From positions 1 to 64,000 of the forward strand of contig CADBWK010000004.1 of NCBI GenBank assembly GCA_902798385.1: a stretch of DNA of 64,000 nucleotides. Direction: 5' to 3'. Shown here piece by piece: positions 360 through 63,900 of this stretch (the first letter of the stretch is position 1; each line of letters begins with the position of its first letter). The DNA is from an uncultured Bacteroidales bacterium. GTDB taxonomy: Bacteria > Bacteroidota > Bacteroidia > Bacteroidales > Paludibacteraceae. The translations under genes were made by a program, and so were the position numbers. Under the pieces are notes generated by a model, which did not search any database, was not told where the DNA came from, and saw only the letters and a list, made by a program, of their open reading frames with translations.

Positions 360-2489
360 ATGAAAAAAATACAGATTTGGATTATGGCAGCAATGACTTT
401 GCTGGGAATGAGTTGCTCGAAAGAGCAGAAAGCCGATGAAGGTAAAGCGCCTATCACGAAGCCGGAGATCACGATCGAGGGCGGACGCCTGACGCCGGAA
501 GGCCTCTGGGCTATGGGACGTATCGGAGCGGTGAGTTCGGACATAGAGACCGGTTGGGTCGCTTATACGGTCAGTTACTACAGCGTAGCAGAGAACAGAT
601 CCACGACGTGGATCCGCGTATGCAATCCGTTTGGAGAGGTTACGGGTGACGGGATACAGGTTACGGATGAGTTTGTGGGGTATGACCCGGCATGGTTCGG
701 CGCGAGCGGTTGGCTCGCCTACATGCGCGCCGGACAGCTCTACCTGCGCCGCGACGGCGAGGAGATCAAGGTAGAAGGAGCAGACGATATCGACGGTTTC
801 CTCCTCTCCCCGATGCGCGACAAGATCATCCTGATCAAGCAGGTGAAGACCGTTCAGAAGACCGTGGACAAATACCCCGACCTGCCGCTGGCTACGGGAC
901 ATATGCACGAAGACCTGATGTACAAGCATTGGGACGAATGGACGGAAACCGCGCCGCAGCCTTTCGTATGCGATCTGGAGATCACTTATTACGGCGAAGG
1001 CGAGCGTATCCAAACCGCAAAGGTGGGCGAGGGCGTGAATATCCTCGAGGGCACGGCATATGAGTGTCCGATGAAGCCCTTCGGCGGCATCGAGCAATTG
1101 GCATGGAACCCGAACAATGAGGAGATCGCTTACACCTGCCGTAAGAAAACCGGTCTGGACTATGCCGTTTCGACCAACAGCGATATATACCTTTATGATA
1201 TCCACACGCGCACGTGCAAGAACATCACCGCGGACAACAAAGGGTATGACACCAACCCCGCTTATTCGCCGGACGGCAAGCGCATCGCTTGGTTGTCCAT
1301 GGAGCGGGACGGCTATGAGAGCGATCAGAACCGCCTGATGGTGATGAACTTCGCGACCGGCGAGAAGAGCTTCGTCAGTCATTATCTGGAGACGAACGTG
1401 GATGAGTTCGCCTGGTACAACGACTCGATCCTGCTCGGTACCGCTGTTATTCAGGGTACAATCCACCTCTGGGCGATGGGACTCGAAGGTTGGTGCGCGA
1501 AGATGACCGAAGGTCAGTTCGACGTGAGCCTCGGGGACGTATGCGATCATTATGCGTACCTGCTGAAGCACTCGATGCGCGAGGCGAATGAGATCTACGT
1601 GCTGGATATCGAGGCCGGTTTGGCGAAAATTGACGGTTATGTGGAGTTGAAACAACTGACGCACGAGAACGATAATATCTACAACCAGATCGAGCGCTCG
1701 ACCGTTGTAGAACGTTGGATGAAGACGAGCGACGGACAACATATGCTGACGTGGATCATCTATCCGCCGCATTTCGATCCGAGCAAGAAATATCCGACGA
1801 TCCTGTACTGCGAAGGCGGTCCGCAGAGTCCGGTGAGCCAGTTCTGGTCCTTCCGCTGGAACTTCATGATGATGAGTGCGGGCGATTATATCATCGTAGC
1901 GCCGAACCGCCGCGGTCTGCCGGGCTTCGGCAACGAATGGAACGAAGAGATCAGCGGCGACTATGGAGGACAATGTATGAAAGACTATTTCACCGCGATC
2001 GACGAAATGTGCAAGGAGCCGTATGTGGACAAAGATCATCTGGGTTGCGTAGGTGCATCTTTCGGCGGATTCAGCGTTTATTGGATAGCCGGTCATCATG
2101 AGGGACGGTTTAAGGCGTTCATTGCGCATGACGGTATCTTCAACCTCGAGATGCAGTACCTCGAGACCGAAGAGAAATGGTTCGCTAACTGGGACATGGG
2201 TGGTGCGTACTGGGACAAAGACAATAAGATCGCCCAACGTACCTTCGCTAACAGTCCGCATAAGTTCGTTGATAAATGGGACACGCCGATACTCTGTATC
2301 CACGGCGAGAAAGACTACCGCATCTTAGCGAATCAGGCCATGGCGGCGTTTGATGCGGCGAAGATGCGCGGTGTGCCGGCGGAGTTGCTCATCTTCCCCG
2401 ATGAGAATCACTGGGTGCTCAAACCGCAGAACGGAATTCTTTGGCAGCGCGAGTTCAGGGGATGGCTCGACAAATGGCTTAAGGAATGA
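360..2489 (+). CDS. S9 family prolyl oligopeptidase-type peptidase, lipoprotein
   Basis: A 709-residue serine peptidase, predicted to cleave short peptides outside the cytoplasm. The N-terminus is a lipoprotein signal with Cys20 in MSCSKEQ. Residues of about 40-440 form a beta-propeller-like region with repeats of the PD40 type (for example YSPDGKRIAW). Residues of about 450-709 are an alpha/beta hydrolase. The triad is visible: Ser567 in GASFGGF, Asp652 in HGEKDYR and His684 in ENHW. Length and order match the S9B/S9C dipeptidyl-peptidase-like proteins common in Bacteroidota. The stop codon lies inside an 8-bp tandem repeat shared with the gap to the thioesterase gene. A short in-frame word (638-657) is identical to one in aroF. 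Exact substrate preference cannot be read from sequence. Confidence 0.92.
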   Translation: MKKIQIWIMAAMTLLGMSCSKEQKADEGKAPITKPEITIEGGRLTPEGLWAMGRIGAVSSDIETGWVAYTVSYYSVAENRSTTWIRVCNPFGEVTGDGIQVTDEFVGYDPAWFGASGWLAYMRAGQLYLRRDGEEIKVEGADDIDGFLLSPMRDKIILIKQVKTVQKTVDKYPDLPLATGHMHEDLMYKHWDEWTETAPQPFVCDLEITYYGEGERIQTAKVGEGVNILEGTAYECPMKPFGGIEQLAWNPNNEEIAYTCRKKTGLDYAVSTNSDIYLYDIHTRTCKNITADNKGYDTNPAYSPDGKRIAWLSMERDGYESDQNRLMVMNFATGEKSFVSHYLETNVDEFAWYNDSILLGTAVIQGTIHLWAMGLEGWCAKMTEGQFDVSLGDVCDHYAYLLKHSMREANEIYVLDIEAGLAKIDGYVELKQLTHENDNIYNQIERSTVVERWMKTSDGQHMLTWIIYPPHFDPSKKYPTILYCEGGPQSPVSQFWSFRWNFMMMSAGDYIIVAPNRRGLPGFGNEWNEEISGDYGGQCMKDYFTAIDEMCKEPYVDKDHLGCVGASFGGFSVYWIAGHHEGRFKAFIAHDGIFNLEMQYLETEEKWFANWDMGGAYWDKDNKIAQRTFANSPHKFVDKWDTPILCIHGEKDYRILANQAMAAFDAAKMRGVPAELLIFPDENHWVLKPQNGILWQREFRGWLDKWLKE

Positions 2490-2522
2490 TGGAATGATGG
2501 AATGATGGAATGATGGAATGAT
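2483..2522 (+). repeat. 8-bp tandem repeat GGAATGAT x5
   Basis: Five perfect copies of GGAATGAT, followed by a degenerate sixth (AAAATGAA). The array contains the stop codon of the S9 peptidase (2487-2489) and fills nearly the whole gap to the thioesterase start. Confidence 0.95.
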
Positions 2523-2525
2523 AAA

Positions 2526-3239
2526 ATGAAGTATAATTACGAATACGAGATAAAATATCAGGAGGTGGACGGGAAGAAGAAACTCCGTCTGTTCAACCTG
2601 GAGAACTACCTGCTGGAGGTAGCCGGAACGGTGGCGGATGAGTTGGGTTTCGGTATCCAAGTGCTGCATCCGCGGGGTTTGACGTGGATCCTGACGCGGT
2701 TGAGCGTTGAGATGTACGAACTGCCGACGCACTGCGAGAAAGTGCGCTTTGAGACATGGATCGAATCGAACGTACATATGCTCAGTACGCGTGACTACCG
2801 GATATATAGCGGCGACAAGCTCATCGGACAATGCAAGAGCGTATGGGCGGTGCTGGATCTGGAGAAACGGGAGATCGTCAATGTGTTCGACGATCCGATC
2901 TTTGCGGACTGCGTGGATGGCGAAGTGATCGAGATGACACGCGTACGCATGACCACCATCCCCGAACCGACGGGCTGCGAGCCGCATAAGATCGTGTACT
3001 CGGACATCGACTACAACGGTCATTGTAACAGTTGCCGCTACCTGCAGGCCATGACCGATGCCTACCTGCCCGACTACTACGGCAAGAAGGTTCGGCTCGA
3101 TATCCATTACAGCAAAGAAGCCATGCTCGGCGAGACGCTGCAGACGAACTACCTCATCACCGAAGACGGGGTACAGTACCAACAGAAAAACGAAAGCGGC
3201 GAAACGAGTTGTTCCGCGAAAATAACGATTAACGATTAA
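2526..3239 (+). CDS. Acyl-ACP thioesterase
   Basis: A 237-residue protein of the acyl-ACP thioesterase family (PF01643), a double hot-dog fold that releases fatty acids from acyl carrier protein in the cytoplasm. The N-terminal hot-dog includes the region around RLFNLENYLLEVAG. The C-terminal half carries the conserved DIDYNGHCN segment, with the Asn and His expected near the active site. Length is typical of bacterial members. It follows the S9 peptidase by 36 bp of tandem repeat and is probably cotranscribed. Its stop codon falls in a second tandem repeat that runs up to the next gene. Confidence 0.88.
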   Translation: MKYNYEYEIKYQEVDGKKKLRLFNLENYLLEVAGTVADELGFGIQVLHPRGLTWILTRLSVEMYELPTHCEKVRFETWIESNVHMLSTRDYRIYSGDKLIGQCKSVWAVLDLEKREIVNVFDDPIFADCVDGEVIEMTRVRMTTIPEPTGCEPHKIVYSDIDYNGHCNSCRYLQAMTDAYLPDYYGKKVRLDIHYSKEAMLGETLQTNYLITEDGVQYQQKNESGETSCSAKITIND

Positions 3240-3251
3240 GGATTAACGATT
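3224..3251 (+). repeat. 7-bp tandem repeat AACGATT x4
   Basis: Units AACGATT, AACGATT, AAGGATT, AACGATT span the 3' end of the thioesterase gene (its last residues IND and the stop are repeat-coded) and end directly before the next ATG at 3252. Confidence 0.95.
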
Positions 3252-3740
3252 ATGGAGATGCAAGATGGTTCAACCCTATTAAAACGTCCGACGGAGTTGG
3301 AGGCGGATGTGGTTCGCTTTCAGAATCAGAAAGACCGCTGGATCGCGTTTGTGGGTTTGAAAGACGGTCGTCCGTATGAGATCTTCACGGGTCTGGCGGA
3401 TGACGAAATGGGAATCGCGCTGCCCAAGAGCGTGACGAAGGGCAAGATCATCAAGATCGTGCAAGCCGACGGAACCAAGCGCTATGACTTCCAGTTCGTC
3501 AACACGCGCGGGTTCAAGACGACGGTGGAGGGCTTGAGTTATAAGTTCGACCGCGAGTTCTGGAACTACGCCCGTCTGATCTCCGGCGTGCTGCGATACG
3601 GCATGCCGATCGACCAGGTGGTACATATGATCAGCGGTCTGCAAATGGACAACGACTCGATCAATAACTGGACGACCGGTGTAGCGCGCGTACTCAAGCG
3701 CTATGTTCCGGGAGCAGAGATCCTTCCCGAAGACGAATAA
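3252..3740 (+). CDS. Free-standing class II ribonucleotide reductase C-terminal domain-like protein
   Basis: 162 residues resembling the region near the C-terminus of adenosylcobalamin-dependent ribonucleotide reductases (NrdJ). Recognisable stretches are KRPTELEADVVRF, GLKDGRPYEIFTG, LPKSVTKGKIIK, KRYDFQF, NYARLISGVLRYGMP and a DSINNW-type segment. The catalytic barrel of the reductase is absent, and so is the Cys-rich tail that often ends NrdJ. By analogy with the split NrdJa/NrdJb of Pseudomonas aeruginosa it could be an NrdJb-like partner or a domain with its own role. The assignment rests on recalled family sequence, so similarity is fairly sure but function is open. It ends at a bidirectional terminator. 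Confidence 0.65.
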   Translation: MEMQDGSTLLKRPTELEADVVRFQNQKDRWIAFVGLKDGRPYEIFTGLADDEMGIALPKSVTKGKIIKIVQADGTKRYDFQFVNTRGFKTTVEGLSYKFDREFWNYARLISGVLRYGMPIDQVVHMISGLQMDNDSINNWTTGVARVLKRYVPGAEILPEDE

Positions 3741-5957: not shown

Positions 5958-6998
5958 ATGAACAATTTATACCGTCAATTATATAATTGGTACGCTCAAA
6001 ACCATCGTGTTTTGCCTTGGCGAGAAACCGACGATCCGTACGCTATCTGGTTGAGTGAGATCATCCTGCAGCAGACCCGTGTGGCGCAGGGGATGGAGTA
6101 CTACATGCGATTCCTGAACCGTTGGCCGACCGTAGAGGCGCTGGCCGCAGCGGATGAGGCGGAGGTGCTGCGCGAATGGCAGGGACTCGGATACTATTCC
6201 CGGGCACGCAATCTGCATAAGGCAGCGAAGCAGATAGTCGAAACGGGTTACGGGTTACCGGTTACAGGGGACGGGGGACATTTGTTTCCTCGGACCTTTG
6301 ACGAACTCCGGGCTTTGCCCGGTGTGGGCGATTATACCGCCGGGGCGATCGCCTCTTTTGCGTATAACCTGCCCTACCCTGCCGTGGACGGCAATGTGTA
6401 CCGCGTGGTGGCACGCCTATTGGATATCGACGAGGCGTTCGACACGAGTGCCGGTAAGAAGCTTTTTCACCGGAAGATCGAGGAACTCTTAGACCGCGAC
6501 AACCCGCGTCTGTTCAACTCCGCCATCATGGAGTTCGGTGCACTCCAATGCGCGCCGGTCTTAGGCGATGCGTGTGCGAATTGTCCGCTGCAATCGATGT
6601 GTTTGGGGTACGCGCACGGTACGGCAGAGGTGTTACCCGTCCGCAAACCGAGACCCAAAGTGCGCGACCGATGGTTGACCTACACCATCTACACCGACGG
6701 TCTTTACACGCTCATCCGGCGGCGGGAGAATCCGAAAGATATATGGTATCATCTGTATGAGTTTCCGTGCGAGGAGAGTAATGGCGAATGGTCAAAGGCG
6801 AATGGCGAAAGGGCGATCGAGTTCACGCACGTGCTGTCCCATCAGAAGATCCATGCACGGTTCCTTGTACATAAGGTACAAAAAATGCCGGACATCGCCG
6901 GCACTATCTGTATTCGTTGGGAAGACCTCAATGATTATGCACTTTCCCGATTAACGCTGCGAGCGCTTGATACACTTCGCTTAACTCCTCAGAACTGA
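5958..6998 (+). CDS. mutY: A/G-specific adenine glycosylase
   Basis: A 346-residue base-excision repair enzyme that removes A opposite 8-oxoG. The catalytic Glu34 is in WLSEIILQQT. The helix-hairpin-helix reads LPGVGDYTAGAI and the catalytic Asp144 is in PAVDGNVYR. The [4Fe-4S] ligands follow as C-X7-C-X2-C-X5-C, one residue longer in the first gap than in E. coli. A C-terminal NUDIX-like domain follows. I chose the ATG at 5958 because an earlier ATG (5889) would lie upstream of the promoter. Two repeat-coded inserts are visible: around residues 97-109 (GGGTTAC units) and around 275-285 (AATGGCG words). The stop codon also lies in a repeat. The gene overlaps its convergent neighbour by 71 bp. 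Confidence 0.93.
   Translation: MNNLYRQLYNWYAQNHRVLPWRETDDPYAIWLSEIILQQTRVAQGMEYYMRFLNRWPTVEALAAADEAEVLREWQGLGYYSRARNLHKAAKQIVETGYGLPVTGDGGHLFPRTFDELRALPGVGDYTAGAIASFAYNLPYPAVDGNVYRVVARLLDIDEAFDTSAGKKLFHRKIEELLDRDNPRLFNSAIMEFGALQCAPVLGDACANCPLQSMCLGYAHGTAEVLPVRKPRPKVRDRWLTYTIYTDGLYTLIRRRENPKDIWYHLYEFPCEESNGEWSKANGERAIEFTHVLSHQKIHARFLVHKVQKMPDIAGTICIRWEDLNDYALSRLTLRALDTLRLTPQN
6245..6277 (+). repeat. GGGTTAC repeat, in frame in mutY
   Basis: GGGTTAC, GGGTTAC, CGGTTAC, then a G-rich end. It codes an extra YGLPVTGDGG-type segment in the loop before the helix-hairpin-helix. Confidence 0.9.
6780..6812 (+). repeat. AATGGCGAATGG word, in frame in mutY
   Basis: AATGGCGAATGG, an AAGG spacer and again GCGAATGGCGAA; codes a polar NGEWSKANGER-like linker. 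Confidence 0.8.
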
Positions 6999-7689
6999 AT
7001 TCTGATTTCTGAATCCTGAATTCTCTCAAGATCTCCAGATGATGGCGGATGACCGCTTGGTCTCCGCGTTGTGCCGGTCCGGTCTGTGCCTCGGCGGGTT
7101 TCATCGCGTGCACTTTGGCGGCGGTGTTGTCGATCAGCGGCAACAAAGCCTCGAAGGGAATGGATGTGTCTTTGAGCACCTCCGATGCGATGCGGTACAT
7201 CAGGTTGGTGTAGTTATTGGCGAAGATACCGGCTATATGCAGCCGCTCGCGATCGTGCTGGTTCGCCTCGTAGATATGACTCGTGAGGGTCTGCGCGAGG
7301 CTGTAGATAGCGGCGATGTCGTCGATGTTACGACCCTCGATGAAACACGGGATGCTACTCCAGTCGTCGATGAGTTGGGTGCGACTGAACGACTGGAAGA
7401 AATACAGGATACCGGCATGGGGTTTGTCTGCACCAAAGACCTCGATAGGCATCGAACCCGAGGTATGCAGATGCAGCGCTTTGGGTGCGTTCACCTTCGA
7501 GACCACCTCTGCGAGGGCATTGTCCGCGATCGCATAGATATAGACATCTGCCTTCGGCAGATTGGTCATTGGTGATTGGTCATTGGTGAGCGGTCGTGCA
7601 TGGACGAGTTCTGCCCGGATACCTTTGAGTTCCAATCCGTGATGGAGGTTTGTACCGACACTGCCGGCGCCTAAGATAGCTATTTTCAT
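6928..7689 (-). CDS. Rossmann-fold NAD(P)-binding protein with DUF2520-type C-terminus
   Basis: 253 residues. The N-terminus MKIAILGAGSVGTNLHHGL is a dinucleotide-binding fold of the F420-oxidoreductase/ketopantoate-reductase type. The second half (for example REKLHIAGIFANNYTNLMY-like, here RERLHIAGIFANNYTN) matches the DUF2520 family common in Bacteroidota. The substrate is unknown. A repeat of ATTGGTC/ATTGGTG units codes the insert LTNDQSPMTNLPKA after the second strand, and a GAATTCAG repeat codes part of the C-terminus. It follows the M20 peptidase by 12 bp and overlaps mutY at its 3' end. Confidence 0.85.
   Translation of the reverse strand: MKIAILGAGSVGTNLHHGLELKGIRAELVHARPLTNDQSPMTNLPKADVYIYAIADNALAEVVSKVNAPKALHLHTSGSMPIEVFGADKPHAGILYFFQSFSRTQLIDDWSSIPCFIEGRNIDDIAAIYSLAQTLTSHIYEANQHDRERLHIAGIFANNYTNLMYRIASEVLKDTSIPFEALLPLIDNTAAKVHAMKPAEAQTGPAQRGDQAVIRHHLEILREFRIQKSEFSSEELSEVYQALAALIGKVHNH
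6995..7023 (+). repeat. CTGAATTCTGATTTCTG repeat at the mutY/DUF2520 overlap
   Basis: Alternating CTGAATTC and CTGATTT/CTGAATC words. It contains the mutY stop codon (6996-6998) and, on the other strand, codes EFRIQKSEFS in the DUF2520 protein. Confidence 0.85.
7561..7588 (+). repeat. ATTGGTC/ATTGGTG 7-bp repeat, in frame in the DUF2520 gene
   Basis: Four 7-bp units (ATTGGTC, ATTGGTG, ATTGGTC, ATTGGTG) inside the Rossmann domain, coding NDQSPMTN on the minus strand. The same peptide NDQSPM recurs in ArgS. Confidence 0.95.
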
Positions 7690-7691
7690 AA

Positions 7692-7722
7692 CGGCGAATG
7701 GCTAATGGTTAATGGCGAATGC
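7692..7722 (+). repeat. GGCGAATGG/CTAATGG repeat between M20 and DUF2520 genes
   Basis: The words CGGCGAATGG, CTAATGG, TTAATGG and CGAATGC code the last residues (AFAINH and stop) of the M20 peptidase and fill the gap before the DUF2520 start. Confidence 0.85.
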
Positions 7723-9093
7723 TTTATAAAACTCTGCTACCGCGATGATACCTTTCTCCCATACCTCGAGGTCCATGGACTCGTTGGGCGAGTGGATGGC
7801 GTTCTGCTCGAGACCGAAGCCCATGAGGATGGTCTTGCAACCCAGGATCTGCTCGAAAGCCGCGATGATAGGTATCGAACCGCCACGACGAGCCGCCAAG
7901 GGTCGTTTGCCAAAGGCGATCTCAAAACCTTTCTCGGCTGCCTTGTACGCAGGTATATCGATCGGACAGACATAACCTTGACCGCCGTGCATAGGAGTGA
8001 CGTTTATACGAACTCCGTTCGGTTTAATGGCGTGTAGATAGTTTATAAACGCCTGCGAGATCTTCTCGTGATCTTGGTTGGCTACGAGACGGCAGGACAC
8101 CTTAGCGAAGGCCTTGGAAGGCAGCACAGTCTTGGAGCCTTCCCCGGTATAACCACCCCATATACCGCACACATCAAAGGACGGACGGCAGGAGTTGCGC
8201 TCAAGCGTCGAGTACCCTTCTTCTCCGAAGACATCATCGACACCGATGGACGTGTTGTATTTTTCCTGCGAGAAAGGTATCTGCGCGATCATATCGCGTT
8301 CAGCTTGCGGGATAGGCAGCACGTCATCATAGAAACCCGGGATGGTGATACGCCCATGTTCATCCACAATCTTGGAGATCATCTCGCAGAGCGCATTAAC
8401 CGGGTTCTTGACCGCTCCACCAAAGTGTCCGGAATGGAGATCACGATTCGGACCGTCCACTTCGATCTGCCAATAAGCGAGTCCGCGAAGGCCGGTGGTG
8501 ATAGACGGTGTATCCTTTCCGATCATGGAGGTATCGGACACGAGGATGATGTCCGATTTGAGAAGTTCTTTATGATCCTCGAGGAAAGCCTCGAGGCTTG
8601 GCGAACCGATCTCTTCCTCGCCCTCGAAGATGAACTTGACGTTGCAACGCATCAGGCCTTCATGCACCAGATACTCAAAAGCCTTCGCCTGAATCATCGC
8701 CTGTCCTTTGTCGTCATCGGCACCGCGGGCATAGAGACGTCCGTCACGAATGGAGGGTTCCCATGGATCGGACTGCCAGAGTTCTAACGGCTCTACCGGC
8801 ATCACGTCGTAGTGAGCATAGACCAAGACGGTGGGAATCCCTTTGAGCGAAGCGTCCTGTAGCGAAGCGTCCTGTACCCTATACTCTCCATAGACAAACG
8901 GATTGCCCTTAGAGGGCAGGACTTCGGCGCGTTGGCAACCGGCGGCGAGCAGCAGTTCTTTCCACCGCTCCGCACAGCGGAGCATGTCCGCTTTATGCTC
9001 GGTTTGACAACTCACACTCGGGATACGGATGAGGCTCGACCACTCGTCCATGAACCGCGCTCTATGCGCATTTATGTAATCTTGAATAGACAT
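7702..9093 (-). CDS. M20 family metallo-dipeptidase
   Basis: A 463-residue zinc peptidase of the M20 (CNDP/PepV-like) family, acting on dipeptides in the cytoplasm. Metal and catalytic motifs are in order: HYDVMPVEP (His and Asp), ARGADDDKGQ, the catalytic pair in FEGEEEIGS and the lid domain starting near LHSGHFGG. The closing metal-binding region has QNAIHSPNE. Length is normal. A perfect 15-bp tandem duplication (8846-8875) adds LQDAS in front of the first metal motif. The C-terminal six residues are repeat-coded. First gene of a two-gene unit with the DUF2520 protein. Confidence 0.92.
   Translation of the reverse strand: MSIQDYINAHRARFMDEWSSLIRIPSVSCQTEHKADMLRCAERWKELLLAAGCQRAEVLPSKGNPFVYGEYRVQDASLQDASLKGIPTVLVYAHYDVMPVEPLELWQSDPWEPSIRDGRLYARGADDDKGQAMIQAKAFEYLVHEGLMRCNVKFIFEGEEEIGSPSLEAFLEDHKELLKSDIILVSDTSMIGKDTPSITTGLRGLAYWQIEVDGPNRDLHSGHFGGAVKNPVNALCEMISKIVDEHGRITIPGFYDDVLPIPQAERDMIAQIPFSQEKYNTSIGVDDVFGEEGYSTLERNSCRPSFDVCGIWGGYTGEGSKTVLPSKAFAKVSCRLVANQDHEKISQAFINYLHAIKPNGVRINVTPMHGGQGYVCPIDIPAYKAAEKGFEIAFGKRPLAARRGGSIPIIAAFEQILGCKTILMGFGLEQNAIHSPNESMDLEVWEKGIIAVAEFYKAFAINH
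8846..8875 (+). repeat. 15-bp perfect tandem duplication in the M20 gene
   Basis: AGCGAAGCGTCCTGT occurs twice, head to tail, coding the repeated peptide LQDAS. Confidence 0.95.
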
Positions 9094-9209: not shown

Positions 9210-12035
9210 ATGATGGTGATTTTCCTACTCTGCTCGATGGCAGTGTGGGCGGAGGACAGTATCCCCGGAGGGGTATTCAGCACGATGCGTGAACGGCCGG
9301 ATACGTTATGGGGTATGGGGCAGGATTCCGCACGGGTCGACAGCGTGCAGCCGAAGAAGCAGAGTGCGTTGGCCGCGCCGGTTCATTACCAGTCGAAGGA
9401 CTCGATGGTGATGATGGCGAACGGCACGGCGTATCTGCACGGTAGCGGTGAGTTGAAATACGAGAAGATGGAGTTGGAGTCGGAGTACATCCGCATGAAC
9501 TTAGACTCGAACCAAATTTACGCGCGGGGCGTGTATGACTCGATCAACTCCGAATGGAAGGGCAAGCCGGTGTTCAAGGACGGGAAGGATAGTTATCAGA
9601 CGAATGAGATCACGTATAACATCCGCACGCAGAAGGGATATATCCGGCATGTCGTGACCCAGCAGGGCGAAGGCTATATCATCGCGGACAAGACGAAGAA
9701 AGTAGAGGGCGATGAGATGATGATTGCCGGCGGTCAGTACACGACCTGCGATCATCACGATCATCCGCACTTCTACCTGAAGATGACCAAAGCGAAGGTG
9801 AAGCCGGGTGATTATATCGCGACCGGACCGGCGTATATGGTAGTAGGCGACGTACCGCTGCCGTTAGCTATCCCGTTCGGTTTCTTCCCGTTCAACAGCA
9901 AGTACTCAAGCGGAATCATCATGCCGCAGTTCGGCGACGACTACACGCGCGGTCTGTATCTGAGTAATTTCGGATATTACTTCGCGATATGCGACTACAT
10001 GGATCTGGAAGTGACGGGCGATATCTATTCCCGCGGAACATGGGCGGTGCGCGCGAAGACGCGGTATGTTTGGCGGTACCATTTCAGCGGCAACCTGAGC
10101 ATCAACTACCGCAACGACGTGACGAGCGAGAAGGGCCTGCCGGACTACTCGGCGCGGAGGAACTTCAGCGTCCAATGGACGCACAGTCAGGACTCGAAAT
10201 CCAATCCGTACAGCACGTTCTCGGCGAGCGTGAACTTCGCGACGAGCGGATACAACCGGAGTAACATCAACAGCTACTACAACTCGAACCTATATTCGGA
10301 GAACACGAAGAGCAGTACGATCAACTACACGCAGCGTTTCCCGGACAGTCCGTGGAGCCTGAGCATGACAGCGAGCCTGACGCAACGCACGAGCGACTCG
10401 ACGATCTCGCTGACGGCTCCGCAGCTGACGGTGAACATGAGTACGATATACCCGTTCAAGCTCTGGCGCCAGGCTACGCTCAAGCGCAAAGGATTGGTGG
10501 GCGGCAAGGAGAAATGGTACGAGAAGATCAGCATGAGTTATTCGCTGAACGGCAAGATCTCGACGAGTAACATGAAGGAGAGTTATTTCCCGCACTCGAA
10601 TTTCCTGCGCGACTGGCAGACGGGTCTGAGTCACAGTTTGCCGATCAGGGCTTCGTTCATGCTCTTCAAATACCTGTCTATCTCGCCGAGTATCAGTCTG
10701 CGCGACCGTATGTATTTCACCCGCGTGGATCAACGCTGGGACGACGAGACGCAGGCTTTGGCACGGGACACCACGAACGGGTTCTACAACGTGTTTGACT
10801 TCGATGTGGGCTTCAGTATGAGCACGAAGATATACGGATTCTACACGCCGCTCAAGCGTCTTTTCCCGAACGGCAAGGTAGAGAAATTCCGTCACGTGAT
10901 CACGCCTTCTCTGGGCTTCACCTACCATCCGGATTTCGAGAAGAGCTTCTGGGGGTATTACGGCAGTTATGAGCAGCCGGTATATGACGGTACGGACTCG
11001 ATCACGGGGCGCAAGACGCAGAAAGTAGATGCCGCGGGCAATCCGGTTTATCAGCATCAGGTGTACTCGCGTTTCCCGAACGGTATGTACGGCAACGCCT
11101 CGCGCGGCATGGCAGCGTCGATCAATTTTGCGCTGGAGCAGAACTTGGAAATGAAGATCGTGAACAGCAAAGACACGACGGGCAAGAACCCCTACAAAGT
11201 AGTGAGCATCATCGATAAGTTCGCCGTTTCGGGTGCGTATAACTTCGCCGTGGACTCGATGAACTTCAGCAAGTTCAATGTAGAGTTGCGTCTGAAGTTC
11301 CCTTACCTGAACAACTACACGCTGACGCTGAACACGCACCTCGATCCGTACATGTATGAGTTGAACGCGCTTGGTACCCCGGTACGCACGAACAAGCAGT
11401 ACTGGCACAACGGCCGGTTCCCGCATTGGGACGGTCTACGATGGAACTTCAGTTATACGATCTCCAACCAGACTATCAAGAAATGGAAGGATAAGATAGA
11501 AGGAAGGAAGAGTAATGATGGAAATGGTGGAAATGATGGAAATGATGGGAATGATGGGAATGATGTGAACATGGACTCGATCGAGAAAGACGGCGAAGGC
11601 ATGGATCGGAACGCCAAGCAGAACAACAAGAAAGAGGAAGAGGTGGACGACGGTTATGTGAAGACCGAGTTCCCGTGGAGCGTGTCGATCAACTACTCCT
11701 TAGCGTACCAAGAGACGAGCACGTTCGACTACGAGCGCATGTACCCGAAGATGAAGCTGACGCACTCGCTGTCGCTGTACGGCAACCTCGGTCTGGGTCA
11801 GGGATGGAAGATCAGCGCGAACATGACGTATAACTTCGACTACAAGAGAGTGACGGCCTGCACGTTCAACGTGAGTCGTGACCTGCACTGCTGGAACATG
11901 AGCGCGAGCATCAACCCGATCGGGCCGTTCAAGAGCTTCACGTTCCATATCGGAGTGAACGCGTCGATCTTGTCTGACCTCAAGTACGACAAGAGCAGTA
12001 ACTCGAGTACGGATTCGAGGACGGATTGGTGGTAA
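9210..12035 (+). CDS. lptD: LPS-assembly outer membrane protein LptD (Bacteroidota OstA-like)
   Basis: 941 residues. It inserts lipopolysaccharide into the outer leaflet of the outer membrane. A short signal sequence (MMVIFLLCSMAVWAED) precedes an OstA-like beta-jellyroll around residues 55-220 (MANGTAYLHGSGELKYEKME). A long beta-barrel of alternating aromatic strands follows and ends in WW. I chose the ATG at 9210 because the earlier ATG (9108) lies upstream of the promoter; an ATG at 9213 is equally possible. Near residue 770 a 9-bp repeat codes Asn-Asp-Gly units in what should be an outer loop. Downstream is the FKBP isomerase after a repeat-filled gap. Confidence 0.88.
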   Translation: MMVIFLLCSMAVWAEDSIPGGVFSTMRERPDTLWGMGQDSARVDSVQPKKQSALAAPVHYQSKDSMVMMANGTAYLHGSGELKYEKMELESEYIRMNLDSNQIYARGVYDSINSEWKGKPVFKDGKDSYQTNEITYNIRTQKGYIRHVVTQQGEGYIIADKTKKVEGDEMMIAGGQYTTCDHHDHPHFYLKMTKAKVKPGDYIATGPAYMVVGDVPLPLAIPFGFFPFNSKYSSGIIMPQFGDDYTRGLYLSNFGYYFAICDYMDLEVTGDIYSRGTWAVRAKTRYVWRYHFSGNLSINYRNDVTSEKGLPDYSARRNFSVQWTHSQDSKSNPYSTFSASVNFATSGYNRSNINSYYNSNLYSENTKSSTINYTQRFPDSPWSLSMTASLTQRTSDSTISLTAPQLTVNMSTIYPFKLWRQATLKRKGLVGGKEKWYEKISMSYSLNGKISTSNMKESYFPHSNFLRDWQTGLSHSLPIRASFMLFKYLSISPSISLRDRMYFTRVDQRWDDETQALARDTTNGFYNVFDFDVGFSMSTKIYGFYTPLKRLFPNGKVEKFRHVITPSLGFTYHPDFEKSFWGYYGSYEQPVYDGTDSITGRKTQKVDAAGNPVYQHQVYSRFPNGMYGNASRGMAASINFALEQNLEMKIVNSKDTTGKNPYKVVSIIDKFAVSGAYNFAVDSMNFSKFNVELRLKFPYLNNYTLTLNTHLDPYMYELNALGTPVRTNKQYWHNGRFPHWDGLRWNFSYTISNQTIKKWKDKIEGRKSNDGNGGNDGNDGNDGNDVNMDSIEKDGEGMDRNAKQNNKKEEEVDDGYVKTEFPWSVSINYSLAYQETSTFDYERMYPKMKLTHSLSLYGNLGLGQGWKISANMTYNFDYKRVTACTFNVSRDLHCWNMSASINPIGPFKSFTFHIGVNASILSDLKYDKSSNSSTDSRTDWW
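11513..11566 (+). repeat. GGAAATGAT 9-bp repeat, in frame in lptD
   Basis: About six GGAAATGAT-like units code (N-D/G-G) tripeptides in an otherwise normal LptD. The same unit codes the tail of the Bat-operon membrane protein (44745-44780). Confidence 0.95.
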
Positions 12036-12076
12036 TGAAAGTTGAAAGTTTAAAGTTGAAAGTTTAAAGTTTAGAG
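12036..12076 (+). repeat. GAAAGTT/TTTAAAGTT repeat in the lptD-FKBP gap
   Basis: The words GAAAGTT and TAAAGTT alternate through almost the whole 43-bp gap. Confidence 0.9.
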
Positions 12077-14030: not shown

Positions 14031-14594
14031 ATGAAAATAATCGGCTTCATATATCGTGACGGTAGCCCGGAGATGGTGCTCAAAGGCGACAGTTGTCTGC
14101 TGAACGGTCGTAAGCCGATGTTCATACCGGATTGGACGAATGAGTTGGGTGTGACGGATTGTATGATCCTGCGTGTGAGCCGTTTGGGCAAAGAGATAGC
14201 GCCTAAGTTCGCGAGTCGATACTACGATGCGGTGGCACCAGGAGCGGACTTTATCGCGCTGGATATCGCGCGTGAGGCGCAGGCCAACGGACGCCCGTGG
14301 ACCAAAGCGATCGATTTCGACTACTCGCTGGCCGTTGGGGAATGGATGGAGATTGGAGATTGGAAATTGGAGATTGGAGATTGGAAATTGGAGATTGGAG
14401 ATTGGAAATTGGAGATTGGAGATTGGTTAATGACACCCGATGAGGCGGTTGCAGAGGCGAGCAAGGTGATGACGATACGGCAGGGAGACCTCATTTATAT
14501 CCAAGCCAAGCAAGCGCCGAAGGTTGTGCACAAAGAAGAAGTAATATGCAAGCAGATAGGCGGCGAAGAGAAGTTATATTGTAAGATCAAATGA
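14031..14594 (+). CDS. Degenerate fumarylacetoacetate hydrolase (FAH)-like protein with repeat insert
   Basis: 187 residues resembling the small FAH-fold proteins of Bacteroidota. Conserved pieces are [35 protein letters not shown] and GDLIYI. The acidic E-x-E pair that holds the metal in active FAH enzymes is replaced by V-T-D (in LGVTDCMIL), although the Asp in the ADFIALD segment remains. The part normally leading to the active site after residue 103 is replaced by a four-fold heptapeptide repeat (unit EIGDWKL). It has therefore probably lost catalysis or become a pseudoenzyme. ATGA overlap couples it to porU, so its frame may be kept for translation of porU. Confidence 0.6.
14349..14426 (+). 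repeat. 21-bp repeat coding EIGDWKL heptapeptides
   Basis: Three full 21-bp units (GAGATTGGAGATTGGAAATT + G) and one 15-bp partial unit, itself built of GATTGGA words. In frame inside the FAH-like gene. Confidence 0.95.
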
Positions 14595-20947: not shown

Positions 20948-21587
20948 TCTCAAACAGCAGTTTACGTCCGGGGTATAGTTCCGGCCAGTTCAAGTTATGC
21001 GTGGACATGAGAACCGTGATCCCCGCTTGTGAGATCGCATAGAGCAGGTCCATGATCTCCCGTCCGGTCTCGGCATCGAGGTTACCCGTCGGTTCGTCTG
21101 CGAGGATCATCTCCGGCGAGTTGAGTAGCGCACGCGCGATCACCACACGTTGTTGCTCACCTCCGGACAGCTCGTAGGGTTTCTTATACGCTTTCGTATC
21201 CATGCCTACCTGCTCCAGTACTTCCCGCACATGGTCGTGCATCAGTTTCTTGTCTTTCCATCCCGTCGCGCGGAGGACGAAGAGCAAGTTCTCCTCCACC
21301 GAGCGGTCGGTCAGCAGTTTGTAGTCCTGGAAGATGATGCCCAAGCGGCGACGCAGGTACGGCAGTTTACGGCGACGGATCTTCGTCATGTCGTACTCCA
21401 GCACGCGCGCCTCGCCCGAAGCGATAGGCAGCGCACCGTAGATCGTCTTCATCAGACTCGATTTGCCGCTACCTACCTTACCCAGCAGGTAGATCATCTC
21501 GCCGCTCTCCACCGTCAGGTTGACGTCATGCAGCACGATCTGATCCGCCTGATGAATCGCTACGTTCGTATATTCGATTAATCCCAT
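20931..21587 (-). CDS. ftsE: FtsE-like cell-division ABC transporter ATPase
   Basis: A 218-residue ABC ATPase. Walker A is [10 protein letters not shown], the signature is LSGGEQQR, Walker B is [12 protein letters not shown] and a late His lies in STHNLNW. The sequence reads as FtsE, which with FtsX controls peptidoglycan hydrolases at the septum. No ftsX is adjacent, as often in Bacteroidota. The start codon (21587-21585) is part of a GGGTTAC-type repeat, so the repeat forms both leader and start. Confidence 0.88.
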
Positions 21588-42958: not shown

Positions 42959-42959
42959 A

Positions 42960-42992
42960 GGAAACTAGGAGACTAGGAAACTAGGAGACTAG
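42960..42992 (+). repeat. GAAACTAG/GAGACTAG repeat between moxR and DUF58
   Basis: GGAAACTAGGAGACTA is repeated twice (8-bp words alternating). Fills the gap. Confidence 0.95.
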
Positions 42993-47502: not shown

Positions 47503-49350
47503 ATGAAAAGACAATTATCGATATTTATTCTCCTTATCGGCATCGCGTTAGGCGCGTTTGCCGATGAGGTCGTTTTTAGAGCGCAAGCGCCGAAACAGGT
47601 TGTGGTCGGACGTCCGTTCCAGATCACGTACACGGTCAATCAACGCAGTCGCGATCTGCGTGCACCGGAGTTCACGGACTTTGATGTACTGAGCGGACCG
47701 TACACGAGCACGAGTAGCAGCACGTCGTTTGTGAACGGCAAGCGTACGTCGTCGTTCGAGCAGACCTACACCTACATGCTCATGGCGCAGCGTGCGGGCA
47801 CGTTCACGATCAATCCGGCGACGGTGAAGGTGGACGGCGAGAACGTGCAGTCCAACGGTGTACGGATCGAGGTATTGCCGGAAGATCAGCCGCAACAGCA
47901 GAGCAGTCAGGCCAGTCAATCGAGTCAGACCAGACAATCGAGTTCTTCCGGTCAGTCCGGTCAGGCTTCCTCGGAGAATATCTTCGTGCGCACGATTGCC
48001 AGCAAAACGAAGGTGCACGAGCAAGAAGCGCTGATGATCACGTACAAGCTCTATTTCGCGAACGTGGATGTGGCGCAGTTGACCAACAACACCAAGTTAC
48101 CGGAGTTCACGGGCTTCTTGAAGCAAGATCTGGAGCAAGGTGAGATCCAGACGGAGTTGGAGCATTACAACGGTCGTAACTACCAAACGGCAGTGCTCTA
48201 CCGCACGATTCTGTATCCGCAACACTCGGGTGATATAGCGATTGATCCGGCTAAGTTCGAGGCTGTGCTGCGCGTGCAGACCCAACAGCGGGCACGATCG
48301 ATCTTCGATGATTTCTTCGGCAGTTATACGAACGTAACGAAGATGCTCACCGCCCCGGGTGTGACCATTCATGTAAGTGGGCTTCCAAGCGGTAAACCGG
48401 CTGGTTTCAGCGGAGGTGTCGGTAAGTTCACCTTGACGCCGAGTATCAGCCAGACAGAGTTGCAAGCCAATGAGGCAGTAACGATTAAGTTAGATATCTC
48501 GGGTTCGGGAAATATGAAACTCATCAAGACGCCGGCTATCGATTGGCCGGAAGGTTTTGAGCCCTACGATCCGAAGGTGACCAATAACTTCAAGACCACC
48601 ACTTCGGGTGTGAGCGGCACGAAGTCGATTGAGTACCTCGCTATCCCGCGCAGCGCCGGTGAATACACCATTCCTGCGGTGAAGTTCAGTTATTTCGACA
48701 TCGACGAGAAAGCCTATAAGACGCTGAGCACGCCCGAATATACCATTCGCGTGAAACGCGGTGCGGGTACTAACTCCGACAAAGGCGAAGAGGCGGTCGT
48801 GGTGAACTACACGCAGAAAGAGGACATCAAGCAACTCGGTACGGATATCCGCTATATCGATACAAAGGGAGTCGATAGTCGAAAGTCAAAAGTCGAAAGC
48901 ATTAATACAGACCTGATTTGGCTGTGGTATGTAGTACCTCTGTTATTGGCAATTATTCTTCTTATTATTCTGCGCAAGCAGATTAAGGAAGCATCCGACC
49001 TGACGCGCATGAAATACAAACGTGCGAACAAGGTAGCACAGAAGCGTCTGAAAGCAGCTGCAGCGGCACTGAAAGCCAATGACAAAGAAGCCTTCTACGC
49101 GGCTATCGAGAGCGCTGCATGGACGTATCTGAGTGACCGTCTGAGTATTCCGACAGCGGAGCTAAATAAGGATAACATCGCCTCGATTTTGGCACAGAAA
49201 GGTGTGAGTGAAGCCCTTATCAAGGACGTTAAGGATGTACTGAGTACGGCGGAGTTTGCGCGCTACGCGCCGACGACCGATCACGGAATGGACGACCTGT
49301 ATACAGCAACCACGAATTTGATTAATAACCTCGAAGATCAGAAGATATGA
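47503..49350 (+). CDS. batD: BatD, protein with immunoglobulin-like domains
   Basis: 615 residues. A signal peptide (LLIGIALGAFA) precedes several BatD beta-sandwich domains (VVGRPFQITYTVNQRSRDLRAP, later FSGGVGKFTLTP and DISGSGNMKLIKTPAIDWP). A Ser/Gln-rich linker lies at about 128-160. A membrane helix (LWYVVPLLLAIILLIIL, near 475) and a cytoplasmic helical tail end the protein. A repeat (48869-48899) codes VDSRKSKVES just before the membrane helix. Coupled by ATGA to batE. Confidence 0.93.
   Translation: MKRQLSIFILLIGIALGAFADEVVFRAQAPKQVVVGRPFQITYTVNQRSRDLRAPEFTDFDVLSGPYTSTSSSTSFVNGKRTSSFEQTYTYMLMAQRAGTFTINPATVKVDGENVQSNGVRIEVLPEDQPQQQSSQASQSSQTRQSSSSGQSGQASSENIFVRTIASKTKVHEQEALMITYKLYFANVDVAQLTNNTKLPEFTGFLKQDLEQGEIQTELEHYNGRNYQTAVLYRTILYPQHSGDIAIDPAKFEAVLRVQTQQRARSIFDDFFGSYTNVTKMLTAPGVTIHVSGLPSGKPAGFSGGVGKFTLTPSISQTELQANEAVTIKLDISGSGNMKLIKTPAIDWPEGFEPYDPKVTNNFKTTTSGVSGTKSIEYLAIPRSAGEYTIPAVKFSYFDIDEKAYKTLSTPEYTIRVKRGAGTNSDKGEEAVVVNYTQKEDIKQLGTDIRYIDTKGVDSRKSKVESINTDLIWLWYVVPLLLAIILLIILRKQIKEASDLTRMKYKRANKVAQKRLKAAAAALKANDKEAFYAAIESAAWTYLSDRLSIPTAELNKDNIASILAQKGVSEALIKDVKDVLSTAEFARYAPTTDHGMDDLYTATTNLINNLEDQKI
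48869..48899 (+). repeat. AGTCGAAAGTCAAAAGTCG repeat, in frame in batD
   Basis: The words GTCGATA, GTCGAAA, GTCAAAA and GTCGAAAG code VDSRKSKVES. Confidence 0.9.
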
Positions 49351-50084
49351 AACGGTTTATAATTTGTAATTTATTATTGGTCATTTGTCATTTGACCTTT
49401 GCGCAGAGCGAGTTTGATGTAGCGAACGCCGCATATGCCGACGGGCGCTATGAAGAGGCTGCAGCGGGCTATGAGGCGTTGCTGGCAGAAGGACCGAACG
49501 CTACGCTGTATTATAATTTAGGTAACGCGCGCTTTAAGCAGGGCGAGTTGGCGCAGGCCATCTTGAACTACGAGCGGGCACTGCGTCTGGAGCCGAATCA
49601 CAAGGACGCGCAGTATAACTTGGCGTTTGCGCAAAGTAAGATCACGGATAATATCGTAGAGCAGGATTTCTTCCTTTCTACATGGGCAAGGACGGTGCGT
49701 AACAGTCTGCGCGAACAAACGTGGTTGGTGCTCTCTATCAGCCTGTTTATGCTGGGCTTGATCGGTATCCTACTCTTCTTGTTAGGACGCGAGCCTTGGC
49801 TGCGTAAGACGGCTTTTCATGTGGCATGGTTAGCCCTACTCTTCTCGCTGATCGCGGGTCTTAATGCGGCATCGCTGCATCAAAGAGACACCCTGCGCAA
49901 TGAAGCTATCATCACACAGGGTGTCGTTAATGCGAAGTCTTCGCCTGACCGTTCAGGTACGGACCTCTTCACCGTTCACGAGGGCACCAAAGTGACCATC
50001 CGCGAGACTATTGGCGAGTGGTCGAACGTTCGCGTTGGCCAGAACGAGGGCTGGATTCGGTCTTCGTGCCTTGAGAGGATCTAG
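49347..50084 (+). CDS. batE: BatE, TPR and SH3-domain protein
   Basis: 245 residues. The signal peptide (FIICNLLLVICHLTFA) is itself coded by repeat words (AATTTGTAAT, TGGTCATTTGTCATTTG; 49358-49397). TPR units follow (VANAAYADGRYEEAAAGYEALL and YYNLGNARFKQGELAQAILNYERAL), then two membrane segments (about 130-180) and a C-terminal SH3b-like domain (VNAKSSPDRSGTDLFTVHEGTKV). It ends the moxR-bat unit and overlaps the convergent lipoprotein gene by 77 bp. Confidence 0.92.
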   Translation: MKRFIICNLLLVICHLTFAQSEFDVANAAYADGRYEEAAAGYEALLAEGPNATLYYNLGNARFKQGELAQAILNYERALRLEPNHKDAQYNLAFAQSKITDNIVEQDFFLSTWARTVRNSLREQTWLVLSISLFMLGLIGILLFLLGREPWLRKTAFHVAWLALLFSLIAGLNAASLHQRDTLRNEAIITQGVVNAKSSPDRSGTDLFTVHEGTKVTIRETIGEWSNVRVGQNEGWIRSSCLERI

Positions 50085-60920: not shown

Positions 60921-60950
60921 TGCCCGATTTTAGTTTGCGTTAATGCGCGC

Positions 60951-63900
60951 GTGGGTATAGAGGACTTAAAAATACTATTCGGGGAACATCCGGAACTGGC
61001 AGCAGTTCGGAAGGAACTGGCGCATAAGAACGCACACGTATTATTGAGCGGTTTGCACGCTTCTGCACGCGCGCTGGCGCTGGCACACATGAAGATGCCG
61101 CTCTTTGTGATCTTTGACAATGCAGAAGCAGCACAATATCTGTACAGTGATCTGAAGGCGCTGGGCGCTGATGCCGGATTCTTTCCGGCGGCACAGAAAC
61201 GCCGGGCGGTCGATGAAGCCGCGCAGATACAACGGACGGAATGCCTGACTACCCTGCCCCGTATCATCGTCACCTACCCCGAGGCACTCGCAGAGCCGGT
61301 TCCGGCGAAAGAGGACTTGGCCAAACAAAGTGTGACGCTGAAGGTGGGCGAAGAAGTACGTATCTCCGATTTGAGCGAGATGCTCGCTGACTTAGGCTTC
61401 GAGCGCGTGGACTTTGTGTTCCAACCCGGGCAGTATGCCGTGCGTGGGTCGATCGTGGATATATACAGTTACAGCCACGACAACCCCTACCGTTTTGATT
61501 TCTTCGGCGACGAGATCGATTCGATTCGCGAGTTTGACATCGAAGATCAGCTAAGTAAGGCGAAAGTAGAGAAGGCAGAGATCGTAGGAGCTAAGAGCCA
61601 AGAGTCCGAAGTCAAGAGTTATATCCCGGACTATCTGGCGGAGGATACAGTGTGGGTGAGCAATGATTGGAGCGTAGCGCGATTTAAGTTAGAGGGGTTA
61701 CAGGTTACGGGTTACGAGTTACAGGAGCGAAAGACCATCGAGATAGCGGACAAGAGTACGTTTGCAGAGCACGTGAAAGTGACCTTCGAGACGATGCCTC
61801 AGCCGATCTTCCATAAGCAGTTCGATATCCTGACGGACGATCTCAAGAAGCATATCGACGAAGGGTACAAGGTCTATATCTTGGCAGAGCAGCAAAAGCA
61901 GCTCGATCGTCTGAAAGCGATCTTTGAGAGTATTCAGCATTCAGATGTCAGTATTCAGTTCATCGGCATCAACGCGACGCTGCACGAAGGATTTGTGGAT
62001 CGGGGGTTGAAGATTTGCTGTTATACCGACCACCAGATCTTCGAGCGCTACCACCGCGTGACGATGGCAAGCGAGAACGCACGACGTGGCAAAGCGATCA
62101 TCACGTTAAGGGAGATCAACCAGTTGCAGATCGGCGACTACGTGGTGCATAGCGATCACGGAATTGCGAAGTTCGGCGGATTGGTAACAACGCCGGTGAA
62201 CGGCAAACCGCAAGAGATGATCAAACTCAACTACCGCGACGGCGCGAACGTGTTTGTGAGTATCCATAACCTGCACCGCATCAGCAAGTACAAAGGTCGT
62301 GAGGGTTCAGAGCCTACGATCGCACGACTCGGAAGCGGTGCGTGGGAACGACTCAAGGAGCGCACGAAGGATAAGGTTAAGGATATCGCCCGCGATTTGA
62401 TACGTCTCTACGCGACGCGCAAACAGCAGAAAGGTTTTGCGTACTCGCCCGACGGATATATGCAGCACGAGTTGGAGGCATCGTTCTTGTACGAGGACAC
62501 ACCCGATCAGGCAAAGGCCACCGCAGAGGTTAAACGCGATTTGGAGAGTCCGATGCCGATGGATCGCCTTGTGTGCGGTGACGTAGGTTTTGGTAAGACC
62601 GAAGTAGCGATGCGCGCGGCGTTTAAGGTTGCGACAGACGGCAAACAAGTAGCCGTACTCGTGCCGACGACCGTCTTGGCGTTGCAGCACTACAACACCT
62701 TCACGGAGCGAATGAAGAACCTACCGGTACGGATCGAGTACCTCAGCCGACTCAAGTCCGCAAAAGAGATCAAAGAGATCTTGGCAGACCTGGAAGCAGG
62801 GAAGATCGATATCCTCATCGGTACGCACAAACTGATCGGCAAGAGTGTCAAATGGCACGATCTGGGTTTGCTCATCATCGACGAAGAACAGAAGTTCGGT
62901 GTGGCAGCCAAAGAGAAGCTGAAGAGCCTGCGCGCGAACGTCGATGTACTGACACTGACAGCAACCCCGATTCCGAGAACGCTTCAGTTCTCGCTCTTGG
63001 GTGCACGCGACTTGAGTATCATGACCACCCCGCCGCCGAACAGGTATCCCGTTCAGACGGAGTTAATCACGGTGGACGACGAAGACATCATCAAAGAGGC
63101 GATCGAGCTCGAGATGGCGCGTAACGGACAGGTGTTCATCGTCAACAACCGCATTGAGATGCTGCCGCGTATCGAGCATAAGATACAGAAATTATGTCCC
63201 GAAGCACGTATCATCACAGCGCACGGACAGTTGCCGGCAGGAGAGATGGAAGAACGATTGGAAGCGTTTATCAACTACGATTTCGATATCTTGATATCCA
63301 CGACTATCATCGAGTCGGGCGTCGATATACCGAACGTGAATACGATCCTCATCTTCAGTGCAAACAAATACGGCCTCGCGGACTTACATCAACTGCGCGG
63401 GCGTGTAGGGCGCTCGAACCGCAAGGCATATTGCTACCTGATTGCACCGGAGAAAGAACTGTTGACCGAAGATGCAAGGCGGCGTCTGGAAGCCTTGAGT
63501 ACGTTTGCTGAACTTGGCGCAGGATTCAACCTCGCGATGCAAGATCTGGATATCCGCGGCGCAGGAAACATGTTAGGCTCCGAGCAGTCAGGCTTTATTG
63601 CCGACTTGGGCTACGAGACCTATCAGCGGATATTGAACGAGGCGGTGGAGGAACTGAAGGAGGAAGAAGGGTTAACGAGTGAAGGAATGAACGAGTTAAC
63701 GAATGAAGGAGGCAAGCACCTCTGGTGTCAGGATGCGCAGTTGGAGACGGATATCGCGGTTTGTTTCCCGACGGATTATATCGAGAACATATCGGAGCGT
63801 ATCACCCTCTACCGCGAGTTGGACGGCATCCGCAGCGAGGAACAGTTATTGGACTTCCGTAAGAAGCTGATCGACCGTTTCGGTGTACTGCCCGAACCGG

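Follow-up and report, generated by a model that had tools for sequence, protein, structure and literature searches.

The closest described systems to the repeats analyzed here are the short tandemly repeated (STRR) sequences of filamentous cyanobacteria, which consist of 7-base tandem units of no known function (PMC2670836) and have been placed inside an RNA gene by the title of Vioque 1997, cited in PMC4748335. Calothrix has three consensus words per genome (PMC4692102), and the same paper describes, for Xanthomonas and Nostoc, heptamer arrays (GGGAATC and GGGGA(C/T)T) that are dispersed, vary in copy number and are denser in non-coding DNA. Heptamer repeats including TAACTGA have been reported in Beggiatoaceae, Cyanobacteria and five Bacteroidetes, with two sets in Paludibacter (MacGregor 2015, PMC4679880); their distribution is patchy, mobility is suspected with no mechanism evident, and strain indels occur mostly in 7-base steps. 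In this work, tandem arrays were analyzed in a 64,000-nt stretch of an uncultured bacterium of the Paludibacteraceae, order Bacteroidales (positions 1 to 64,000 of CADBWK010000004.1, assembly GCA_902798385.1; hereafter, the window), where a first-pass annotation had pointed out short tandem words filling gaps and running in frame through conserved genes. Heptamer arrays in Bacteroidetes, Paludibacter included, are already in print (PMC4679880); the observations that go beyond the first-pass annotation are the coexistence of dozens of words, their swapping at fixed sites between close species and the strings common to sites of one genome.

PMC4679880 followed one word that is mostly intergenic, with in-frame copies mostly at the protein periphery, and PMC4692102 dealt with a single type of G-rich word in each organism, under-represented in frames on the coding strand. 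The BrickBuilt miniature inverted-repeat transposable element (MITE) of Porphyromonas gingivalis resembles the present arrays in being a dispersed tandem repeat in a Bacteroidales, but is described as having a 23-base unit and a leader and tail with inverted ends, and as always intergenic (PMC4596501). No report of site-by-site word swapping in coding genes was found in the open-licence part of PubMed Central, a scope outside which subscription papers and preprints fall. The palindromic elements of Rickettsia form in-frame insertions in ordinary genes, but are longer, palindromic and built on no short tandem word.

Abundance and placement of the arrays

The window is part of contig 4 of a 1.92-Mb draft genome that is 74% complete. 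Arrays were called with Tandem Repeats Finder (TRF) in the window (74 rows), in a 464-kb sample of the own genome (the window plus 20 stretches of 20 kb) and in a 1.51-Mb sample made up of the window and 80 loci. A score cut-off of 34 applied to the 464-kb count and to the sharing and placement sets, and arrays scoring below 34 or with periods outside the stated sets were left out of sharing, placement and density counts. The genomes compared are species representatives, one per species and many of them draft bins, and species were treated as independent though related. Draft bins may misassemble repeats, yet the arrays are short and lie within intact frames, and the bins stem from several projects. 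Genomes and loci are designated by G and L numbers of our own.

Exact period-7 runs with at least 10 matches numbered 8 in the window, against 0.0 expected from 10 order-3 Markov sequences. The 464-kb sample held 207 arrays scoring at least 34, compared with 35 and 36 in two Markov runs, and 71 period-7 arrays, compared with 1 and 3. In 1.51 Mb, period-7 arrays numbered 287 versus 35 in Markov DNA at score 30, and 141 versus 1 at score 40. Period 7 was foremost, with further excesses at periods 8, 9, 11, 12, 14-16, 18, 21, 22 and 24. The tandem words are therefore real, and each word named in the first-pass annotation lies in an array, as judged by eye from the TRF list. Codon use does not account for them, since 311 open frames of at least 150 amino acids contained 44 period-7 arrays, versus 0-2 in five codon shuffles and 1-4 in five synonymous shuffles. 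The peptides said to recur in unrelated proteins do so above composition in frames chosen greedily from open reading frames: LEIGDW has 5 matches in 3 frames (0.003 expected), VTGDG 5 in 5 (0.165) and NDQSPM 2 in 2 (0.001).

A set of 125 own arrays (periods 7, 8, 14, 15, 16, 21 and 22) was placed relative to these frames, a rough choice that overstates coding at 95% of bases: 56 are contained in a frame, 37 overlap a frame end, 11 fall within 60 bases of one and 21 are intergenic. Per-base density is thus higher outside frames, with 21 of the 125 arrays in 5% of the bases. Arrays contain the stop codons of the S9 peptidase gene (2489) and mutY (6998) and the start codon of an ftsE-like gene (21587), as had been proposed, and frames stay open in the housekeeping genes that carry arrays.

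The resemblance to STRR sequences drawn in the first-pass annotation holds for the 7-base tandem unit, its dispersal and its lack of a known function, and the arrays are, like the heptamers of PMC4692102, over-represented in non-coding DNA. It does not extend to the few words per genome of STRR, since 54 distinct units were found among 87 period-7 arrays scoring at least 30 (single-base variants counted apart). The TAACTGA tandem pair of PMC4679880, TAACTGATAACTGA, had no match in the window with up to one mismatch and no exact match in 330 loci. The dozens of words, the placement of nearly half of the arrays in frames and the Bacteroidales host set the present arrays apart from STRR sequences, as may the swapping of words at fixed sites between close species.

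Words exchanged at fixed sites in orthologs

Thirty same-genus loci (own included) were aligned for each of four genes: mutY, the gene for a 3-deoxy-D-arabino-heptulosonate 7-phosphate (DAHP) synthase/chorismate mutase (aroF-like), an FAH-like gene and mfd. Most window stretches fall in gapped columns; the stretch at 27879 does not, which marks it as a replacement rather than an insertion. Because of the aroF-like stretch VKGLQVTGDG, the window exceeds the other 17 of the 18 rows shown (of 30) by 9 residues, and the LEIGDW run of the FAH-like gene is present in the window alone among 30 rows. The gaps in ArgS are concentrated at four places, those elsewhere being small. In a predicted model with a mean predicted local distance difference test (pLDDT) of 74, low in core parts and at residues 497-506, the variable residues 70-73, 110-113, 424-430 and 498-505 are placed at or between the ends of secondary-structure elements; the gaps at 67 and 419, which one to three sequences fill, are within helices of this model. 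As judged from these alignments, and in line with what had been claimed, the coding stretches tested are for the most part inserted or substituted in loops or at gene ends.

The same sites carry different words in different species. The best 80 of 562 ArgS relatives in named genomes are 74-92% identical; their contig titles read Bacteroidales, Bacteroidia, Paludibacteraceae or Candidatus Colicola, and, where the titles give a source, it is mostly ruminant, horse or pig gut. One ArgS loop is occupied by arrays in 41 of the 81 loci, where 33 distinct units are found, and the other three loops in 25, 20 and 10, compared with none of 81 after letter shuffling and none of 81 in each of ten 30-column control segments. 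On a quick gene tree inferred without the loop columns, the loop occupied in 41 loci shows at least 20 presence changes and at least 32 family changes, the latter counted with author-defined word classes in which unmatched words each stand alone. Twenty-five window arrays, taken where the DNA of relatives was compared and none of them between 32 and 61 kb, were read in four relatives (G003, G030, G015 and G006). Among 69 readable cells of 100, 36 were array-free, 10 had the same words and 23 had other words, 'same' being defined by a shared 10-mer so that drifted words (e.g. 3223 in G006) were scored as different. Arrays hence occupied 33 of 69 cells, versus 4 of 190 cells at 120 random control positions in G003 and G015 only (240 cells, 50 unreadable); array sites in these two relatives alone were occupied in 18 of 41 cells. 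Differing words at the same spot in close species suggest that strings are copied round the genome and replaced quickly. Selected arrays of the window are listed below with their state in relatives, where read.

2483..2529, + strand: GGAATGAT x5, spanning the stop codon of the S9 peptidase gene and the gap that precedes the acyl-ACP (acyl carrier protein) thioesterase gene; other words in four relatives
3223..3256, + strand: TAACGAT array, covering the stop of the thioesterase gene and the start of the gene after it; absent from G003, the same words in G030, near-same ones in G006, others in G015
6243..6265, + strand: GGGTTAC array, MutY loop TGYGLPVTGDG; none in G003, G030 and G006, ACAATGT array in G015
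6783..6812, + strand: GGCGAATGG array in MutY; absent from G030 and G015, with other words in its place in G003 and G006
6995..7024, + strand: CTGAATT array, covering the mutY stop and, near the end of the overlapping DUF2520 gene, part of that gene; G003 has the same, the three other relatives none
7560..7589, - strand: ATTGGTC/ATTGGTG array in the DUF2520 gene, NDQSPM peptide
7689..7721, - strand: AATGGCG array, over the DUF2520 start and the M20 peptidase end; none in G003, G030 and G015
8846..8876, - strand: AGCGAAGCGTCCTGT x2 in the M20 peptidase gene, a member of the word-plus-mini-hairpin class; G003 has the same
11514..11565, + strand: AATGATGGA (9-base) array in the C-terminal part of lptD; shorter in G003
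12038..12073, + strand: AAAGTTG/AAAGTTT array in the gap that follows lptD; the same words in G030, absent from G003 and G015
14347..14426, + strand: GGAGATT array with a 21-base higher period in the FAH-like gene, LEIGDWK repeats; shorter AGGTGAT (G003) and AGGTGAA (G030) arrays
21583..21606, - strand: GGGTTAC array containing the ftsE-like start codon; same in G003, the only relative read
22849..22882, - strand: AAAATCA array in the gap between a DUF349 gene and argS
23379..23410, - strand: CATTGGA array, ArgS loop after residue 423
24456..24494, - strand: CACCAAT-type array, ArgS stretch near residue 72
27012..27040, + strand: GATTGGA array near the start of the aroF-like gene
27279..27314, + strand: GATTGAAG/GATTGGA array in the aroF-like gene
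27396..27427, + strand: GGGTTAC array in the aroF-like gene; insertion in 1 of 18 rows shown of 30; its first 24 bases recur at L243:18787 on the other strand
27879..27929, + strand: 21-base repeats of related words in the aroF-like gene; alignment column not gapped
31647..31684, + strand: AAAGTTT array at the end of an outer membrane protein gene; long ATTTATG/ATTTCAG array in G006
42959..42992, + strand: AGGAAACTAGGAGACT x2 between moxR and a DUF58 gene; 21 bases recur at L247 on the other strand
48870..48899, + strand: AGTCGAA array in batD
49356..49394, + strand: array at the N-terminal end of a TPR/SH3 ('batE') gene
61696..61725, + strand: GGTTAC array in mfd; G003 has the same words, G030 has CTACAGGACG and G015 a CCTAGGAGT-type array
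63674..63711, + strand: AACGAGTG array in mfd; different arrays in each of G003, G030 and G015, making four with the window; hairpin-like stretch, not scored as an array, in G006

Most gene names of the window are backed by Pfam and NCBIfam. Mfd and ArgS exceed the cut-offs of TIGR00580 and TIGR00456, respectively; MutY falls just below that of its best match (TIGR01084, 282.3 versus 286.5) and the FtsE-like protein clearly below (TIGR02673, 229.8 versus 264.85). The names aroF and batE come from the first-pass annotation and are not profile-assigned: the 'batE' product has TPR and SH3 domains by Pfam and no NCBIfam match, and the aroF-like product has Pfam domains for both activities, with all NCBIfam matches below cut-off. 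The latter gene (26985-28001) bears four arrays, and NCBIfam synthase models match it in one or two pieces, below their cut-offs. The window also encodes a porU-like C25 peptidase (14591-17947) and a PorV family gene (18023-19219), from which the organism is likely to have a type IX secretion system, as well as a 3314-aa open frame with one Cadherin-like domain match (31722-41666, - strand) and a DUF805b RNA (RF02914, 38.8 bits; 59929-59963, - strand) just upstream of the gene at 59035-59910.

A second class of arrays, seen at 8846-8876, L033:~11850-12050, L035:~9090-9170 and L259:6503-6800, alternates a word (CAAACAA, CTACAGGAC, TTTAACG) with mini-hairpins of varying stem, whose loops, by eye, are often GCA, GAA or AGA (e.g. 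GGACGCAGTCC, GCGAAGC). GCGAAGC is an unusually stable DNA mini-hairpin. Hairpins of the kind seen in repetitive extragenic palindromes (REP; CCCCTCCCTT...GGGGAGG) occupy heptamer-type permissive sites at L048, L046 and L030, and in G006 at window position 63674. A genome-wide excess of triloop hairpins with particular loops was considered and the claim dropped: stem-6 hairpins numbered 226 versus 133 (own) and 686 versus 422 (genus), with no dominant loop.

The arrays also seem to change rapidly. In 13 close pairs, indels are few yet often long, 136 of 192 measuring 5-80 bases. In nine pairs that are 91-99% identical, 51 of 94 strongly divergent blocks differ in array, 45 with an array on one side only and 6 with different arrays on both sides, while 43 have none; blocks of more than 150 columns or near alignment ends were excluded. 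One pair, L046/L048 (~93% identical), contributes 16 of the 51 over some 12.5 kb. The identity of flanks within 100 bases differs from pair identity by means of +0.005 and -0.001 in the two array classes. Loss of mismatch repair was considered on the evidence of indel length: single-base indels make up 17 of the 192, which does not resemble small-loop repair loss, although the gap setting and coding selection also disfavor them.

Strings shared between sites and the origin of the arrays

Pieces of arrays recur elsewhere in the same genome. In the 464-kb sample, 43 of the 125 own arrays share at least 18 exact bases with another own place more than 300 bases away (both pair members counted); the shared strings include 24 mixed-word strings, 20 of the matches lie on the opposite strand and none extends more than 8 bases past the array. 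When shared bases are counted within the array, 42 of 125 own arrays reach 18 or more, compared with 14 in an equal amount of relatives' DNA and 4 with words permuted. The mixed-word strings measure 18-28 bases. The string GGGTTACAGGTTACGGGTGACGGG lies in the aroF-like gene and, on the opposite strand, at L243:18787 on another contig. Two mate pairs of the mixed strings listed are near each other (0.6 kb in L248 and 1.9 kb in L242), and the others are on other contigs or farther apart. Seven of 25 GGTTAC sites read in the own genome begin with AGGGGTTACAGGTTACGGG, and one array (L310) joins, by eye, the GGTTAC and ATTGGTC families. The pattern GGTTACNGGTTAC has 34 matches in the own genome, against 10 for a reversed-pattern control, and ranges from 0 (21 of 41) to 80 copies across the 41 genus genomes. 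Among 484 arrays from 78 relatives' loci, 66 within-genome pairs share a 12-mer, compared with 23 on average and at most 40 when labels were shuffled 500 times, and such sharing is about three times commoner within a genome (66/1742 pairs) than between genomes (1402/115055).

The occurrence of mixed strings at other sites, on both strands and without common flanks, favors copying between sites over purely local slippage, and these dispersed STRR-like short tandem arrays probably spread and turn over as pieces of arrays are copied from one site of a genome to another. Host replication or repair would copy an array, or part of it, into another site through strand switching or patch repair, with another array as the template; units within an array would be homogenized by slippage or unequal exchange, so that words drift, and selection would retain those changes that keep the frame open and fall in loops, chain ends or gaps. 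We infer from the shared strings that one array may act as template for another.

The arrays might instead be born locally, each slipping from its own flank, with words made alike by a biased process or by common base composition. Many words are indeed single in the sample, arrays of sister species sometimes differ by whole units (L033/L035; L013/L015, with two indels, one of 14 bases), and orthologous FAH arrays are mostly GGTGATA in G003 and GGTGAAA in G030, as if homogenized in place. Against this, the mixed-word strings recur elsewhere, many on the opposite strand, unrelated words are found at one site in sister species and array-free relatives are mostly without a seed of the word, making local birth a rather unlikely general explanation. 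Movement of the arrays as miniature elements (MITE, REP or diversity-generating retroelement-like) by a transposase or reverse transcriptase would agree with the REP-like or mini-hairpin repeats that replace heptamers at some sites and with the MITE bearing a minisatellite in P. gingivalis (PMC4596501), but we deem it improbable. Terminal inverted repeats and target duplications, the hallmarks of such elements, were not found in the 15-base flanks of 8 arrays, where the longest matches are 2-5 bases direct and 2-4 inverted (TRF edges, no chance model). Further, PF01797 (Y1 transposase) and PF00078 (reverse transcriptase) exceed their cut-offs in 12 and 10 of 41 genus genomes, respectively, and neither was found in the own genome (74% complete) in a search covering these two enzyme types. 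Since the search turned up neither target duplications nor inverted ends, and no mobile enzyme that is universal, the copying step itself is one that we infer; the same results, together with mostly ordinary microhomology at entry sites, favor host replication or repair as its agent.

Recombination between species, swapping gene pieces that happen to bear arrays, would explain why words are common to several species of the genus. The flanks up to 100 bases from changed arrays are, however, on average as identical as the pair itself, so that an exchanged piece would be hardly longer than the array, and this account is quite improbable. We attach very little probability to the arrays being a regulatory or adaptive device, whether as binding sites, as contingency loci or through loop diversification by positive selection. 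Arrays are frequent at frame ends and in loops, and heptamers upstream of starts have been proposed as regulatory sites in Beggiatoaceae (PMC4679880), but the dozens of words, the nearly half of arrays inside frames and the differing words at one site argue against a sequence-specific function. In the simplest view, the arrays are a load, mutational or selfish, that is tolerated where sites are permissive, and the rewriting of loops, start codons and stop codons is incidental.

Several points weigh against copying between sites as the source of the arrays. No donor-to-target event was caught among the species-representative genomes. Microhomology of the word at array-free sites was ordinary in 6 of 8 hand-picked tests (7 sites), standing out at the aroF-like site only (two relatives, fractions 0.073 and 0.013). 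Many words occur once, so that some arrays may arise locally, and about 10 of the 87 period-7 arrays are possibly chance, going by the 35 counted in 1.5 Mb of Markov DNA. Sharing is inflated by AT-rich words; with words permuted, 4 of 125 arrays still share 18 bases, and the relatives' DNA used in the sharing comparison comes from one gene neighborhood only. Regarding the speed of change, some of the 45 one-side-only blocks differ in how many copies of the same words they hold, locus L056 is part of three of the nine close pairs, and flank columns inside divergent blocks were excluded from flank identity.

Distribution of the arrays and implications

The density of arrays of the chosen periods is 0.22-0.39/kb in the genus, 0.067/kb in the sister genus G078 (60 kb) and 0.089/kb in 17 stretches of other families (24 arrays versus 11 in Markov DNA). 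In 80 kb of G078, 5 arrays of the chosen periods and no period-7 array were found. Restriction to the genus is ruled out by period-7 arrays in four genomes of other families: G119 (5 in 67 kb), G125 (7 in 51 kb), G136 (8 in 114 kb) and G089 (2 in 18 kb), which were chosen on hints, are AT-richer and were counted without a shuffle control. Long arrays of GTTGCAG/GTTACAG, AATTAGG and CAGTCCT are seen in G125 at L327:8102-8171, L328:9505-9591 and L328:3717-3777, and GGTTACNGGTTAC occurs in 34 of 117 other genomes of the order, in 23 of them once. The array habit is thus patchy in Bacteroidales and not confined to the genus, in agreement with PMC4679880.

The repeat process rewrites loops of essential enzymes as well as start and stop codons, and array inserts can mislead gene calls, trees and structure alignments. 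The genus includes dozens of species with sequenced genomes, separated by graded distances, and the gain, loss and swapping of arrays at shared sites across them make the spread of heptamer arrays directly testable. A tentative and stronger possibility is that arrays are actively written in this genus, a templated process copying word strings from one array into permissive sites genome-wide, so that words would spread in bursts and supplant one another at fixed sites at a pace exceeding that of the flanking DNA. If true, this process would represent a kind of mobile DNA that dispenses with any element, ends or transposase of its own.

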